Below, piece after piece: positions 12,602 to 28,153 of a stretch of 64,000 nt of DNA. The position numbers and the translations under genes were made by a program. Each line of letters starts with the position of its first letter. The first letter of the stretch is position 1. The notes beneath the pieces were generated by a model. It was not told the DNA's origin. It worked only from the letters and a program-made list of their open reading frames with translations, and searched no databases. This DNA is from Sphingopyxis panaciterrae (lineage in GTDB: Bacteria > Pseudomonadota > Alphaproteobacteria > Sphingomonadales > Sphingomonadaceae): positions 558,001 to 622,000 of the forward strand of contig NZ_JAASQN010000001.1 of the NCBI RefSeq assembly GCF_011762125.1, given 5' to 3'.

Positions 12602-13470
12602 TGGATATCCTCCGCATCGGCGCCGTGCGGTGCGGGGCTTTGGGGGCGGCCGCATTACTGTCGCTCGTTGCCACGGGGGCGAGCGCCGAAGAGGTGGCCG
12701 AGCCGCCGGTGGGTATCGTCGAAAACCCCTGCATCGGTGCGCCCGTGCTGCCCGTGGTGGTTCGCGATTATTTCAGGGGCATCATGGATCCCGCGCTGTC
12801 GACGGGCGCGGCGATGCCCGCCGCCGAATATGCTGGCTACCGCACCGCCGCCGACGAGCACAAGAAGCGCGACTGGGCCGCCCTCTGCTATTACCGCGCC
12901 GACAATGCGCGCGTCGCGGCGTTGCCGCAGGACGAGCGCCGCGTCGTCTATATCGGCGATTCGATCACCGAATTATGGGGCGTCGCGGCCGGGGATTTCT
13001 TCCGCGATGGACGGATCAATCGCGGCATCAGCGGTCAGACTGGGGAGGGGATGGTTGTCCGGTTCGTGGCCGACGTTGTCGCATTGAAGCCGCGCATGGT
13101 GCATATTCTGGCGGGGACGAACGACATCGCGGGCAATGACGGGGCGCGTTCGGAGCAGGATTTGCGCAATAATATCATAGCGATGGCGAGCATCGCGCGC
13201 GCCAATGGCATCGCCGTCGTGCTCGCGTCGCTGCCCCCGGCGGCAGCATTCCCGTGGCGGCCGGGAATCAAGCCGGCGGCGCAGATTCGCGCTCATAATC
13301 GCTGGCTTGCCGATTATGCGCGGCAAACGGGCGCCGTTTTCGTCGATTATTACAGCCTGCTCGCGACCGAAGAGGGCGCGATGCAGCCGGCGCTGACCTT
13401 TGACGGCGTCCATCTGAACGCCGCCGGCTATCGCAAGATCGAGGCGCTCAGCCGCGCGGCGACGCGCTGA
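12598..13470 (+). CDS. SGNH/GDSL-family esterase (secreted)
   Basis: A 290-residue protein with a signal peptide (MMDILRIGAVRCGALGAAAL, cleavage near ASA-E). The SGNH blocks are in order: GDSITE with Ser122, RGISGQTGEG, AGTNDI, and DGVHLNAAGY with His272. Such enzymes deacylate acetylated sugars, lipids or arylesters. The ATG at 12598 overlaps the GH1 stop (ATGA), which fixes the start, although the frame is open further upstream. With the carboxylesterase and GH1 it makes a three-enzyme secreted set for an acylated glycoside. The gene ends at a long palindromic element shared with the converging peptidase gene. Confidence 0.85.
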   Translation: MMDILRIGAVRCGALGAAALLSLVATGASAEEVAEPPVGIVENPCIGAPVLPVVVRDYFRGIMDPALSTGAAMPAAEYAGYRTAADEHKKRDWAALCYYRADNARVAALPQDERRVVYIGDSITELWGVAAGDFFRDGRINRGISGQTGEGMVVRFVADVVALKPRMVHILAGTNDIAGNDGARSEQDLRNNIIAMASIARANGIAVVLASLPPAAAFPWRPGIKPAAQIRAHNRWLADYARQTGAVFVDYYSLLATEEGAMQPALTFDGVHLNAAGYRKIEALSRAATR

Positions 13471-13653
13471 GGCCCGCCGCTAGGGTCAGGACCCATTAAT
13501 GGCGCGATCGAGGTTTGAAGCGATTTTGCTCAGGGCTAGGAGGCAAGGCGCAGGCATATGTCGATATGTCCAGACTTGCCGACGATGCCATGGGCAAAAT
13601 CGGTCAAATCCCGCAGGGACGTGCCATTAATGGGTCCTGACCCTAGGCGGGCC
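13471..13653. repeat. Long palindromic MITE-like element at a convergent junction
   Basis: The ends are near-perfect inverted repeats of about 31-33 bases: 13471-13503 (GGCCCGCC, then TAGGGTCAGGACCCATTAAT, then GGC) against 13623-13653, differing by a two-base gap. Inside are further nested pairs: CGATTTTGC 13521-13529 with GCAAAATCG 13594-13602, and AGGCAAG with CTTGCC around a CATATGTCGATATG centre. The whole 183 bases can fold into one long interrupted hairpin. The right end includes the stop codon and last codons of the converging peptidase gene. It holds no transposase and no open frame worth calling. It could be a miniature inverted-repeat element, a bidirectional terminator, or both. 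Confidence 0.75.
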
Positions 13654-15655
13654 GCGTGAGTTCGTCGTAGAGGAAGGTCAGTTCCTCGATATCGCGCTGG
13701 ATCAGCAGTTCGCTCGTCATCTGGTTGTGACCGGCGCCGTGGCGAACGCGCAGCCGCACGCGCCGCCCCGATGTGCTCGCACCCTCGACCGCGGCGACCA
13801 TCTTGCGGCTGTGCCACGGCGGGCAGAGATTGTCGTCGGCCCCCGCATCGCAAAGCAGCGCCGGATAGGCGGTGCCGGGCCTGACGTTATGATAGGGCGA
13901 ATAGGCGTGCATCACCGGCGCGTCGGCGGGATCGTCCGGATTGCCGTAGTCGGCCATGGCGATGCCGAGCGTGGCGGGATCCTTGCGCATCTGCATCAGG
14001 TCGAGAATGGGCACCTGCGCGACCGCGGCGCCGAGCAGGTCGGGGCGCTGCGACACCGCGGCGCCGACGAGCAGGCCGCCGTTCGACGTTCCCCAGGCCC
14101 CGGTGCGTCCGGGAACCGCGAAGCCGCGTGCGTGCAGATCCTCGATCACCGCATAGAGATCGTCGAACGTCCCCTGTTTGCGGTGCATGCGCCCGGCCTC
14201 CCAAAAAGCCTTGTCGCGGTCGCCGCCGCCGCGCAGCTGGGTGTGGACCCAGATGCCGCCCAGTTCGGTCCACGCCGCCGCCATCGCGGTGTAATGCGGG
14301 ATTTCGGGGACGTTGAACCCGCCATAGCCCATCGCGATCACCGGCGCCGACCCGTCGAGCGGGGTCGAAGCCTTGCGCATCAGCCAATAGGATACCGATC
14401 CGTTCGGTCCTGCGGCGTCGAAACGCCGTACGTCGCGGTCGGCCAGCACATGCGCCGGGGCCTCGATCTCTTCGATCGACAGCGTCGCGAGGTCGGCGCG
14501 ATAGACCGCGGGCCCCTGGTCGAGCCGGCTGTGGACGAAAGTGCAGCCATTGCCGTCGGGCGCGACGATCGGCGCCAGCAGCGCGAGAATATAGCCAAGG
14601 CCGAACAGTCCGAAGGCGCCGTCGCCGGGCAGCGGGACATTGCCGACGTCGCGACCCGTGAGGTCGAGCGAACGGAGCCGCATGACGCCATATTCGATCG
14701 TCGAGAGCGCAATATAGTCGCCGCACTGGGTGATCGACAGCAGTTTATGGTCTTCGCGTGCGGGAACAAGCTCGCGCCAGCTCGCTTCGTCGGCGAAGCT
14801 GTCCAGCGGGATCGCGACAAGCCGGCACCAGCCCGACACATCGTCGGTGATCGCCCAATATTCGTCGCCGACGAAGATGCCCCGGTACATCGCCGTGGCG
14901 TCGGGGAGGAAACGGATCCATTCACCGCCGTCCACCCGCCGGATCCAGCGCGGCCGCACCGCGACCTGGCTTGCGTTGATCGCCGCCCAGCGCCCGTCGG
15001 CCGACACCACGGGGATGACCATGGGATGATCGAATTCGAGGTTTTGCTGTTCGGCATCGCCCGCCAGCGGTTGCCACCAGATCTGGTTCTGGCCGATGAC
15101 CTGGCCATCGGCATTTTGGGTGACCGCCATCGTCATGAAATAGAAGCCGCTGTTGTCGGGCATCCAGGCGGCGAAGGGCATGTTGGTGAAGGGGGCGAAA
15201 TCGTCGCGGACGGTCATGCCGTCGGCGACATTGACGATGCGGTAACTGTGCTCGCCATCCTTGACGATGCCGGCAAAGACCAGCGTGCCATCGGGCGAGG
15301 GGTAGGTGCCGGTGATGGTGGCATTGGCGCCGACACCGGCCGGATCGACGATCACGCGGCCCTTGCCGGCCGGACTGTCCGAAACGGTGAGCACGACGCC
15401 GGTGCCGCCGGGGGGCAGGATCTTGCGGAACCAGTTGTTGCCGAAGCGTTCGGGCGCGGTGCTCATCATGATGTCTTCGAAGGTCGCGCGCACCGCCGCC
15501 GCGACGGCGCCGGCATGGGGCGACGCGGCAAGTTCCTCGACGGTCTGCGCGTTCGCCCGGTTCTGCCACTCGGCGACCTTCGGATCGGCATCGTCCTCGA
15601 GCCAGCGGAACGGGTCCCGAACGGGTACGCCGCCAATCACTTCGGTCACGGTCAT
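13643..15655 (-). CDS. Prolyl oligopeptidase family serine peptidase (S9A)
   Basis: A 670-residue enzyme with the S9A layout: short N-terminal helix (DPFRWLEDDADPKVAEWQNR), seven-bladed beta-propeller (about 60-400), and an alpha/beta hydrolase domain with GTSNGGLLVG (Ser524), a downstream Asp (CDAGADDN) and HGAGHNQ (His643). It cleaves short peptides, typically after proline. No signal peptide is visible, so it is probably cytoplasmic and acts after import by the adjacent MFS carrier. ATG 15655 has AAGGAGAA upstream. It is the last gene of a minus-strand group (DUF885 enzyme, TonB receptor, MFS, this peptidase). Its final codons and stop lie inside the palindromic element. Confidence 0.9.
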   Translation of the reverse strand: MTVTEVIGGVPVRDPFRWLEDDADPKVAEWQNRANAQTVEELAASPHAGAVAAAVRATFEDIMMSTAPERFGNNWFRKILPPGGTGVVLTVSDSPAGKGRVIVDPAGVGANATITGTYPSPDGTLVFAGIVKDGEHSYRIVNVADGMTVRDDFAPFTNMPFAAWMPDNSGFYFMTMAVTQNADGQVIGQNQIWWQPLAGDAEQQNLEFDHPMVIPVVSADGRWAAINASQVAVRPRWIRRVDGGEWIRFLPDATAMYRGIFVGDEYWAITDDVSGWCRLVAIPLDSFADEASWRELVPAREDHKLLSITQCGDYIALSTIEYGVMRLRSLDLTGRDVGNVPLPGDGAFGLFGLGYILALLAPIVAPDGNGCTFVHSRLDQGPAVYRADLATLSIEEIEAPAHVLADRDVRRFDAAGPNGSVSYWLMRKASTPLDGSAPVIAMGYGGFNVPEIPHYTAMAAAWTELGGIWVHTQLRGGGDRDKAFWEAGRMHRKQGTFDDLYAVIEDLHARGFAVPGRTGAWGTSNGGLLVGAAVSQRPDLLGAAVAQVPILDLMQMRKDPATLGIAMADYGNPDDPADAPVMHAYSPYHNVRPGTAYPALLCDAGADDNLCPPWHSRKMVAAVEGASTSGRRVRLRVRHGAGHNQMTSELLIQRDIEELTFLYDELTRPA

Positions 15656-26062: not shown

Positions 26063-28153
26063 ATGAAGTTCGTCCGGACCGCCGCGCTGAGCGGAGCTGC
26101 CGCCATCGTCCTGTCTGCCGGAATTGCGCATGCGGCCGAGGCAGCGGACGCCGGGTCGGCGGCGGCATCGACCGACACGATGGACGGCGAGCAGATCGTC
26201 GTCACGGGCTATGCCGGAACCAAGACCGACACGGCGCTCACCGAATTGCCGCAGCCGGTCAAGGTCATCACCGCCGAGCAATATGAGGCGCAGGGCGCGA
26301 TCAGCATCAGCGACACGGTGAAATATGCCGCCGGCGTCCTCGCCAACCCCTATGGCCGCGACACCCGCGTCGACGGCTTCAACGTGCGCGGTCTCGACGC
26401 GCTGCAGTTCCGCGACGGCATGCGCGACATTTTCTCCTATTATGCCTCGATCACGTCCGACCCGTATAATTTCTCGCGCGTCGAAATCGTGCGCGGCCCC
26501 GCCTCGGTGCTGTTCGGCCAGGGGTCGATCGGCGGCATCGTCAACCTTGTCAGCAAGACCCCCGACTTCACCACGCGCGGCGAATTGAGCCTTGTCTATG
26601 GCAGCGATGATCGCAAGGAAGTGCTGGGCGACGTCAATGTCGCGCTCGCCGGCAATCTCGCGGTCCGGTTCGTCGGCCGCGCGCGCGATGCCGACACCTA
26701 TGTCGATCATGTCCCCGACGACCGCGTCATGTTCGCGCCCTCGATCCGCTGGCAGCCGACCCCCGACACCGACGTCGTGCTGACCGGCCTGTATCAGGAG
26801 GATGATACCGGCTCGACCTCGCAATTCCTGCCGATCGTCGGCACTTTTCTTCCGAATCCGGCCAATCCGTCGGGTCAGCTCGACAAATATACCTTCGTCG
26901 GCAAGGCGGGGTGGGACCGCTATGCCGGCCGCTCGCTGCAGGGCGGCGCCGCGATCACGCATAATTTCTCCGACGCGATCAAGCTCAGCTTCAAGGCCCG
27001 CTACATCGACAGCGATCTGGAATATAACACCCACTATGCCGACAGCTATTCCAACCCGCAGGATCCTTTTTCGGTCTATGGCACCGACGGGCGCACCATC
27101 GGTCTGTTCGCGGGTGCCAACGATGCGCGGATGAATGTCTTTTCGACCGACAATAATCTCCAGTTCAATTTCAACACCGGCGCGAATATCGAGCATAAGC
27201 TGCTGGTCGGTATCGATTATAGCTGGAACAAGGTCGCCAAACGCGCTGCCGACCGTTTCAACATCGTCGACCTTTATGACATCGACTATGACGCGCTGCC
27301 GACCTTCGAAGCCACGGGTCCGTTCATCACCGACAGCCAGAAGCAGCTCGGTATCTACGTCCAGGACCAGATCCGCTTCTGGGACCGCGTCTCGGTCGTG
27401 CTGGGTGCGCGTCGCGACCGGGTCACCGGCTCGTCGGGGCAGAAGGACAACGCCACGACCTTCCGCGCCGGGATCATCGGCGAGATCGGTGCGGGCATCT
27501 CGCCTTTCGTCAGTTACACCGAAAGCTTCCTGCCGGTCGCGGGCCGGATCGAAAATGTCGACGGCAGCTTCGGCGATCCCTACCGCCCCCAGACCGGCAC
27601 CCAATATGAAGCTGGCATGAAGTGGCAGCCGGACGTCAACACGCTGGTCACCGCCACCGTCTTCAAGATCAAGGAACGCAACCGCATCCTCTATCTCGCG
27701 GCCGGCGGCACGGCCCAGTCGGGCGTGCTCAACACCAAGGGTTTCGAAATCGAGGCGAGCCACACGCTGCCCGGCAATTTCGAGCTGCTGGCCAACTATG
27801 GCTATTCGAAGCTGAAGTCGGAAAGCAACACCAGCCTCGACTATATGCCGCGCCACATCGCGTCGCTGTGGTCGACCAAGACCTTCGGCCTTCCCGAGGA
27901 AGCGCAGCTCCGTTTGGGCGCCGGCGTCGTCTATAGCGGCAAGAGCGTCTCGACGAGCGACATCTGGTCGATCGTCACGCCATCGCGCACCACGGTCGAC
28001 GCGCTGGCGGAAATCAACTGGAACAATTGGCGCTTCGCGGTGAACGCGACGAACCTCCTCAACAACAAATATTTCGCCTCGTGCCTTGCGCGCGGCGACT
28101 GCTTCATCGGGGCGCCGCGCAACGTGATGGGGACGGTCGGCTACCGCTTCTGA
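26063..28153 (+). CDS. TonB-dependent ferrisiderophore receptor (FhuA-like)
   Basis: A 696-residue receptor with a signal peptide (MKFVRTAALSGAAAIVLSAG, cleavage near AHA-A) and the TonB box EQIVVTGYAGTKTDTALTEL. The plug is typical of hydroxamate-siderophore receptors: DGFNVRGLDALQFRDGMRDI and VEIVRGPASVLFGQGSIGG. The barrel end is the diagnostic YFASCLARGDCFIGAPRNVM, including the paired cysteines, then GTVGYRF. This class brings ferrichrome-like Fe(III) chelates across the outer membrane. ATG 26063 follows AAGGGGA. A weak Fur-like site lies upstream. Unlike the other receptors in the window it is not in a catabolic cluster. Confidence 0.9.
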   Translation: MKFVRTAALSGAAAIVLSAGIAHAAEAADAGSAAASTDTMDGEQIVVTGYAGTKTDTALTELPQPVKVITAEQYEAQGAISISDTVKYAAGVLANPYGRDTRVDGFNVRGLDALQFRDGMRDIFSYYASITSDPYNFSRVEIVRGPASVLFGQGSIGGIVNLVSKTPDFTTRGELSLVYGSDDRKEVLGDVNVALAGNLAVRFVGRARDADTYVDHVPDDRVMFAPSIRWQPTPDTDVVLTGLYQEDDTGSTSQFLPIVGTFLPNPANPSGQLDKYTFVGKAGWDRYAGRSLQGGAAITHNFSDAIKLSFKARYIDSDLEYNTHYADSYSNPQDPFSVYGTDGRTIGLFAGANDARMNVFSTDNNLQFNFNTGANIEHKLLVGIDYSWNKVAKRAADRFNIVDLYDIDYDALPTFEATGPFITDSQKQLGIYVQDQIRFWDRVSVVLGARRDRVTGSSGQKDNATTFRAGIIGEIGAGISPFVSYTESFLPVAGRIENVDGSFGDPYRPQTGTQYEAGMKWQPDVNTLVTATVFKIKERNRILYLAAGGTAQSGVLNTKGFEIEASHTLPGNFELLANYGYSKLKSESNTSLDYMPRHIASLWSTKTFGLPEEAQLRLGAGVVYSGKSVSTSDIWSIVTPSRTTVDALAEINWNNWRFAVNATNLLNNKYFASCLARGDCFIGAPRNVMGTVGYRF

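Follow-up and report, generated by a model that had tools for sequence, protein, structure and literature searches.

A miniature mobile element at the end of a peptidase gene in Sphingopyxis panaciterrae and the predicted RNA domain that it appears to share with other elements of Pseudomonadota

In the stretch of Sphingopyxis panaciterrae DNA analyzed here (64,000 nucleotides, contig NZ_JAASQN010000001.1, positions 558,001 to 622,000; hereafter, the window), a long palindrome occupies the junction of two convergent genes, and one of its arms contains the stop codon of a prolyl oligopeptidase. The locus thus raises the question of what the palindrome is and whether it made the gene end at which it lies. 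The sequence-only reading took it for a 183-base near-complete palindrome (13471-13653), a miniature mobile or REP-type element that supplies the stop codon of the peptidase and now defines its end.

The palindrome and its family

The near-complete palindrome proved to be real: its 27-nt arms (13480-13506 and 13620-13646) show 96% complementarity and the nested 25-nt arms (13512-13536 and 13587-13611) 76%, and the fold of 13461-13663 reaches -128.3 kcal/mol versus a mean of -74.2 (sd 4.35) for shuffled sequences (z -12.4), with none of the 200 shuffles being as stable. As for its extent, the 183 bases stand as an inverted repeat, but the element proper comprises 161 bp (13483-13643, plus strand), and the rest includes a palindromic target. 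The exact borders could be given because they were read off from relatives. Outside them lie TA at 13481-13482 and TA at 13644-13645, regarded as the left and right TA of a target duplication in view of the flanks and the single-TA empty sites of other copies described below. The left terminal inverted repeat (GGGTCAGGACCCATTAATGGCGCG, 13483-13506, plus strand) coincides with the right one (13620-13643, minus strand, placed by the relatives' ends) at 23 of the first 24 positions, of which the first 21 are identical. Further inside, a conserved folded domain (the left one, 13519-13607, plus strand) is matched by model R2 with 80.0 bits (E 2.1e-20) and by model R1 at 13509-13620 with 111 bits. 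Its internal loop consists of GGAG (13539-13542) and the partner strand CGAC (13580-13583), both on the plus strand and located by columns 23-26 and 67-70 of domain alignment A4 and by the R1 model alignment; here G13540 and A13541 face the GA at 13581-13582 as a tandem G.A. The full element contains an inverted pair of one such domain of ~90 nt, and the window copy keeps one: it is devoid of the right-hand domain, which in the 264-bp relatives precedes the right terminal repeat. The neighbour on the opposite side, a GDSL hydrolase gene, ends with its own TGA at 13468-13470, independently of the element. Without the element, the target in the window would itself read as a small palindrome at the convergent gene junction, GGCCCGCC-GCTA-GGCGGGCC (13471-13478 joined to 13646-13653), so that the element apparently entered the loop of a small hairpin.

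Judged by its sequence, the palindrome is a MITE, a non-autonomous transposable element whose end repeats match those of IS5-family insertion sequences (IS). The sequence-only reading had named a single genomic copy without structural conservation in relatives as the finding that would speak against mobility; what was found instead is an element of 161-264 bp, multi-copy and without a transposase gene, with long matches in at least 9 places of its own genome, counting the window (40 out of 75 first-look candidates were scored), with relatives in no fewer than 65 of the 80 genomes searched within the genus (10 candidates being scored in each), and with a fold conserved in these relatives, so that its interpretation as a miniature mobile element was borne out. 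A plasmid of S. alaskensis RB2256 (NC_008036.1) also matches the window element at 26440-26582. Among 137 extracted copies, which had to possess the core motif and both recognizable ends (up to 3 substitutions in 12), so that decayed copies are under-represented, 110 are exactly 264 bp long, 9 are short (161-179 bp) and 3 have other lengths (256, 279 and 313 bp). A copy can become short without leaving its site, since one and the same site holds 264 bp in genome G039 and 170 bp in G021 (loci L073 and L234).

TA is present on both sides of 94 of the 137 extracted copies, and the target of 86 of these 94 is YTAR, CTAG being found in 50. The search for empty sites that had been proposed was successful: the insertion site of L292 appears without an element, as a single CTAG, in L349 and L350; the same is true of L357, where one 3-base gap lies a few bases upstream, and the remaining five homologues listed contain indels at or beside the site. 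For the L228 copy no clean empty site was obtained, the nearest sequence (L339) having indels there. The search for a locus homologous to that of the window and collinear with it found none. The closest peptidase homologue (77%, locus L199 of genome G047) ends three residues later and is followed by a different gene, by eye a regulator.

The candidate partner of the MITE is an ~841-bp IS5-family element of the same genus, which presumably deserves the label IS427-like and for which we take YTAR to be an IS5-type target. Its GGGTCAGGACYCATTGAT ends match the MITE end GGGTCAGGACCCATTAAT as terminal inverted repeats. Four loci (L064, L066, L070 and L071) hold such elements of 840-865 bp with the ends GGGTCAGGACCCATTGAT and GGGTCAGGACTCATTGAT and a transposase whose coding sequence is divided between two frames; three of the four are flanked by TA on both sides. 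In L066 (1503-2343) and its relatives the two transposase frames are arranged around an A/G run, as if by a programmed frameshift. The C-terminal half of the L071 transposase scores 163.9 bits against NF033580 (cut-off 110), the N-terminal half alone scores 108.4 bits, just below this cut-off, and the Pfam matches are DDE_Tnp_1 and DUF4096. The IS occurs whole or as fragments in at least 58 of 80 genus genomes (6 candidates scored per genome), the best of 3 matches in the window's own genome being a 110-bp fragment (6 of 78 first-look candidates scored). Thus, IS5-family elements (NCBIfam NF033580) resemble the MITE in the type of terminal repeat and in TA flanks, but unlike it they encode a transposase and are devoid of the folded domain: the search of 14 IS loci (12 distinct places) gave one weak match (E 0.32), located in a flank.

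Insertion at stop codons

The stop codon of the S9 prolyl oligopeptidase (gene 13643-15655, minus strand) is a TAG read from 13645 to 13643, its T and A coming from the right TA of the target and its G being the outermost base of the element. If the element is removed and one TA is kept, the minus strand reads ...CGG CCC GCC TAG, i.e., the same stop at the same codon. The joined sequence thus argues that the window element did not create the peptidase end and that the protein was unchanged by the insertion.

The same holds in the family. Among 136 copies with enough flanking sequence, for which the gene context was derived from a GC-position heuristic and not from annotation, an open frame runs into the element at 56 junctions, and at 51 of these TA occupies the first two codon positions (phase 0), so that TA and the G of the element make TAG; the excess over one third corresponds to a binomial p of about 2e-19, relatedness being uncorrected. 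Where both TA are intact (7 junctions with a damaged TA were excluded), the codon of the empty site was already a stop in 44 of 44 cases, TAA in 12 and TAG in 32. Since the element begins with G, insertion into TAA or TAG rebuilds TAG and leaves the protein untouched; given the pre-existing stop at each of these junctions, the element inserts into stop codons and restores them. Such restoration concerns at least one side of 46 of the 136 copies and both sides of 5. The claim that the palindrome defines the gene end was accordingly not upheld.

In 400 kb of the own genome the available YTAR sites number 56 at stops, 193 between genes and 198 in coding sequence, and the TA/TA copies are distributed as 39 at stops, 50 intergenic and 5 elsewhere. 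Weighted by motif, about 20 stop-sited copies would be expected among the 81 YTAR copies at stop or intergenic sites, and 38 are seen. The element thus avoids coding sites and occupies stop codons at about double the frequency predicted from intergenic sites. We read this bias as target choice combined with purifying selection, without a special sensor of stop codons. A YTAR target together with a G-first end makes TAA and TAG stops traceless landing sites, by which the element could spread with little harm. Two further contexts were observed: in two species (L420 and L408, about 1231-1503) an element lies at the stop of a gene that by eye is sensor-kinase-like, with the next operon gene directly after it, and in L410 the matching empty site is an overlapping TAATG.

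A folded domain with unrelated ends and its strand

The terminal repeat of the Sphingopyxis family was also detected in at least Chelatococcus, Brucella gallinifaecis, Labrenzia, Roseibium, Novosphingobium, Nitratireductor, Rhodobacteraceae and Rhodospirillales. Most of the elements there measure 261-279 bp, and they are only about 0.6-0.75 identical to the Sphingopyxis consensus, the low end being near the chance level for such a global alignment; among those listed, most folds look alike. Alignment A1 of 27 left domains, taken from 41 elements by leaving out near-duplicates and, on purpose, six divergent Rhodospirillales-type elements, showed double-sided changes in 25 of 28 pairs and a covariation score of 0.716 versus 0.213 for shuffled and at most 0.157 for slid alignments. 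Model R1 recovers elements excluded from A1, several of which carry a second R1 match some 100 nt distant on the other strand. Within the class, at least 20 of 385 genomes were matched by R1, the window's own included (strict filters; 9 candidates scored per genome), and the members found often have other terminal repeats. In the wider alignment A4 (46 of 67 domains, picked by eye; mostly near-duplicates and second-strand matches were dropped) double-sided changes affect 29 of 29 pairs, and the covariation score is 0.780, compared with 0.220 ± 0.013 after shuffling and no more than 0.204 after sliding.

Model R2, derived from A4, matched at least 130 of 398 genomes and 72 of 212 genera of the phylum Pseudomonadota at E <= 0.001, the E-values of both models being rough and the counts being lower bounds (10 candidates scored per genome); 28 of these genomes belong to the window's class, some of them having contributed to A4, and 102 to other classes. 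As a control, in 464 kb of the own genome, the window included, R2 matched nothing beyond the window copy apart from one hit at E 0.91, and 150 kb of E. coli K-12 gave no match at E <= 1. Both domains were found on a plasmid of the gammaproteobacterium Azotobacter chroococcum (E 1.7e-13 and 5.2e-12), and a plasmid search with L491 returned no matches. The own genome contains at least 10 R2 domains. Two more of them (contig C1, 457803-457892, and contig C6, 57784-57873) are absent from the list of the DNA search and probably represent other element families.

Inverted repeats with a score of 13 or more flank the domain in 39 of 40 distinct elements (41 loci, L452 and L483 being the same place; L490 and L497 are doubtful members), the median score being 23.3; only 1 of 200 shuffled flanks reached 13 (mean 6.75). 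Of the 39, 27 are bordered by TA on both sides, 5 on one side only and 7 on neither. More than 20 different end sequences were distinguished by eye, a second domain on the opposite strand is present in 20 of the 40 elements, and the end-to-end distance is 255-272 bp in 30 of them. These comparisons indicate that the domain is common to mobile elements with unrelated ends across Pseudomonadota.

The pattern of substitutions suggests on which strand the fold matters. Structure counts were made on the 110 Sphingopyxis copies of exactly 264 bp, where copies and cells are not independent events, and pairs that are wobble by consensus (one such pair in A4) were excluded from the wobble counts. In the left hairpin G.U exceeds A.C (59 vs 15; per pair, 12 vs 7), and in the right hairpin the ratio is reversed (10 vs 146; per pair, 2 vs 19); A4 also favors G.U (95 vs 29; 15 pairs vs 3). 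Because of these opposite biases, each hairpin looks to have been kept on its own strand, namely as a fold of the strand where it sits nearer the 5' end. The idea that the entire cloverleaf has been selected as a single RNA was rejected, since the right hairpin keeps A.C and not G.U on the plus strand. The internal loop GGAG/CGAC is conserved in the domain. Its inner non-canonical pair in A4 is A.G in 34, C.A in 11 and T.A in 1 of 46 domains, crossed combinations being absent, and in alignment A5 (63 domains fitted to the model) it is A.G in 40, C.A in 20 and other in 3. RNA loops typically show non-Watson-Crick pairs replaced in step in this way. For the first internal loop a strict kink-turn was also considered; the pattern is a tandem G.A beside a 2x3 loop and not a clean three-nucleotide bulge. 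Between co-directional genes the left domain, which is the better-conserved one, meets incoming transcription 46 times versus 20 (p 0.002). By the gene heuristic, 28 of the 136 copies lie between genes both pointing towards the element and 39 between genes both pointing away, where no neighbour transcript enters; the RNA reading does not explain these divergent-gene copies. Considering the strand bias of wobble pairs, the coupled loop exchange, the IS without the domain and the left domain facing transcription, we infer that the domain acts as a single-stranded, strand-specific fold, most likely in RNA.

We regard it as fairly probable that the window element is a MITE with IS5-type ends carrying a predicted RNA domain that acts on the host transcript after the stop codon. 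On insertion at the TA of YTAR the element would duplicate this TA, and its G-first end would rebuild TAG from a TAA or TAG stop. An mRNA entering from either side would meet the terminal repeat and then a correctly oriented domain just 3' of the stop, and in the mRNA this domain would form the conserved hairpin, whose two internal loops are rich in purines. The folded domain may influence how stable the 3' end of the transcript is, promote Rho-dependent termination or bind a host RNA-binding protein. Such an effect would make the insertion harmless or useful, for which reason, as we propose, mobile elements with different ends would carry the same domain. Our belief stops a little short of an even balance for the broader proposal of a phylum-wide mobile RNA module, an inverted pair of one domain with a tandem G.A motif carried as shared cargo by many unrelated families of TA-target MITEs, which would control or protect the host transcript or recruit an RNA-binding protein and settle cost-free at stops. 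If true, the common 'junk' palindromes of Pseudomonadota carry one undescribed structured RNA domain kept across classes, and it becomes testable whether bacterial MITEs persist by offering something to host transcripts.

Alternative explanations and known systems

Truncation of the peptidase by the insertion, with a new stop as the outcome, is highly improbable: the third base of the present stop does belong to the element and the closest homologue does end three residues later, yet the joined flanks with one TA give the same TAG and a prior stop existed at every comparable junction; a gene end created by insertion was therefore rejected, as the empty site reads TAG. That the palindrome is an intrinsic terminator serving both convergent genes, which a very stable hairpin at such a junction would suit, is very unlikely: no terminator-like site (a G+C-rich stem followed by a T-run) was found in window positions 13300-13800, on which ground it was rejected, and only the above 28 of 136 copies, as judged by the heuristic, lie between genes both pointing inward. 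Scarcely credible is a REP/REPIN element moved by RAYT. Multi-copy inverted hairpins near gene ends are shared with it, and REP/REPIN-RAYT systems, as presented in PMC3733652, resemble the window element in inverted hairpin pairs often located downstream of genes and differ from it in size, terminal repeats, TA duplication and the type of transposase. The defining REP features, a tagged palindrome of 20-40 nt without terminal repeats or TA duplication, are not those of an element of 161-264 bp with long terminal inverted repeats, a TA duplication, empty sites and an IS5-family partner having the same ends, so that 'REP-type' had to be dropped from the sequence-only reading and the RAYT assignment was rejected.

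Two other explanations bear on the domain itself. An ordinary MITE without a function of its own, its hairpins stemming from palindromic ends and its arms being kept alike by template switching (quasi-palindrome correction), appears improbable, while some of the data speak for it. At terminal repeat positions 1-21 the arms match within a copy at 2478 of 2562 cells (96.7%, 122 copies of 263-265 bp) versus 81.7% when permuted; the inner repeat positions vary between copies and agree within a copy, and many of the matched changes in the outer stem are of the transversion type. Among sites shared by two genomes, L004 of the own genome and L316 of G035 (flank 89% identical) differ by five coupled two-arm changes and one single-arm change, L277/L278 by one coupled and two uncoupled, L240/L272 by three uncoupled, and no arm position differs in L319/L320 or in L325/L326. 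Since wobble pairs of the outer stem show little strand preference (G.U 70 vs A.C 57; per pair, 10 vs 10), arm copying at the DNA level may contribute there. Such copying leaves unexplained the conserved internal loops, the opposite wobble bias of the two hairpins (59:15 and 10:146), the coupled exchange of the non-canonical pair and the occurrence of one domain with many different ends. Alternatively, the domain could be a DNA hairpin recognized in transposition by an IS5-type transposase or by a host factor on single-stranded DNA, which we consider unlikely. It would agree with the location of the domain, which belongs to mobile elements and lies inverted close to each of their ends, and G.T is tolerated in single-stranded DNA too. 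Against it stand the ~841-bp IS without the domain, the pairing of the same domain with unrelated ends, and the nine short copies, the window's included, which by their length have one domain and still have recognizable ends. The reading of the domain as an RNA fold acting on host transcripts is thus preferred to both.

Small non-coding bacterial elements with IS terminal repeats, direct repeats and a stable fold, like the window element, are known: MITEPye1 of Paracoccus, linked to IS1182 (PMC11578231), and QMITE2 and others (reviewed in PMC10969869) have predicted hairpin transcripts, and in the accessible portions of these two papers no MITE is described with a phylum-wide covarying, end-independent core doubled on both strands. 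ERIC of enterobacteria is similar to the window element in being palindromic and intergenic and in possessing a CCAGGAG-like string. ERIC elements likewise insert at TA. Kinship with ERIC was rejected, as the one E. coli ERIC searched (1501-1586 of L498, filters off) gave no R2 match; the best score in this 3-kb locus, 9.6 bits, lies away from the ERIC, and weak matches of 5.5-5.8 bits begin at its edge. Bru-RS1/Bru-RS2 and RIME are likewise palindromic intergenic repeats of Alphaproteobacteria. Among the open-licence papers listed by a literature search, none named the element in its title or the start of its abstract, and it may have been described before in ISfinder or in subscription journals. 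We would call the type of element, a MITE, a known kind, and the shared, strand-specific, end-independent domain new. Rfam gave for window positions 13000-14100 at E <= 1 one match (E 0.61) far below the gathering score, and for 10 + 20 loci at gathering thresholds the sole match was a neighbouring tRNA in L443, where the tRNA gene (1651-1724) adjoins an AT-rich family member. Outside the class, in family f188, some small genomes are rich in the domain, several of them having at least 10 copies and others one.
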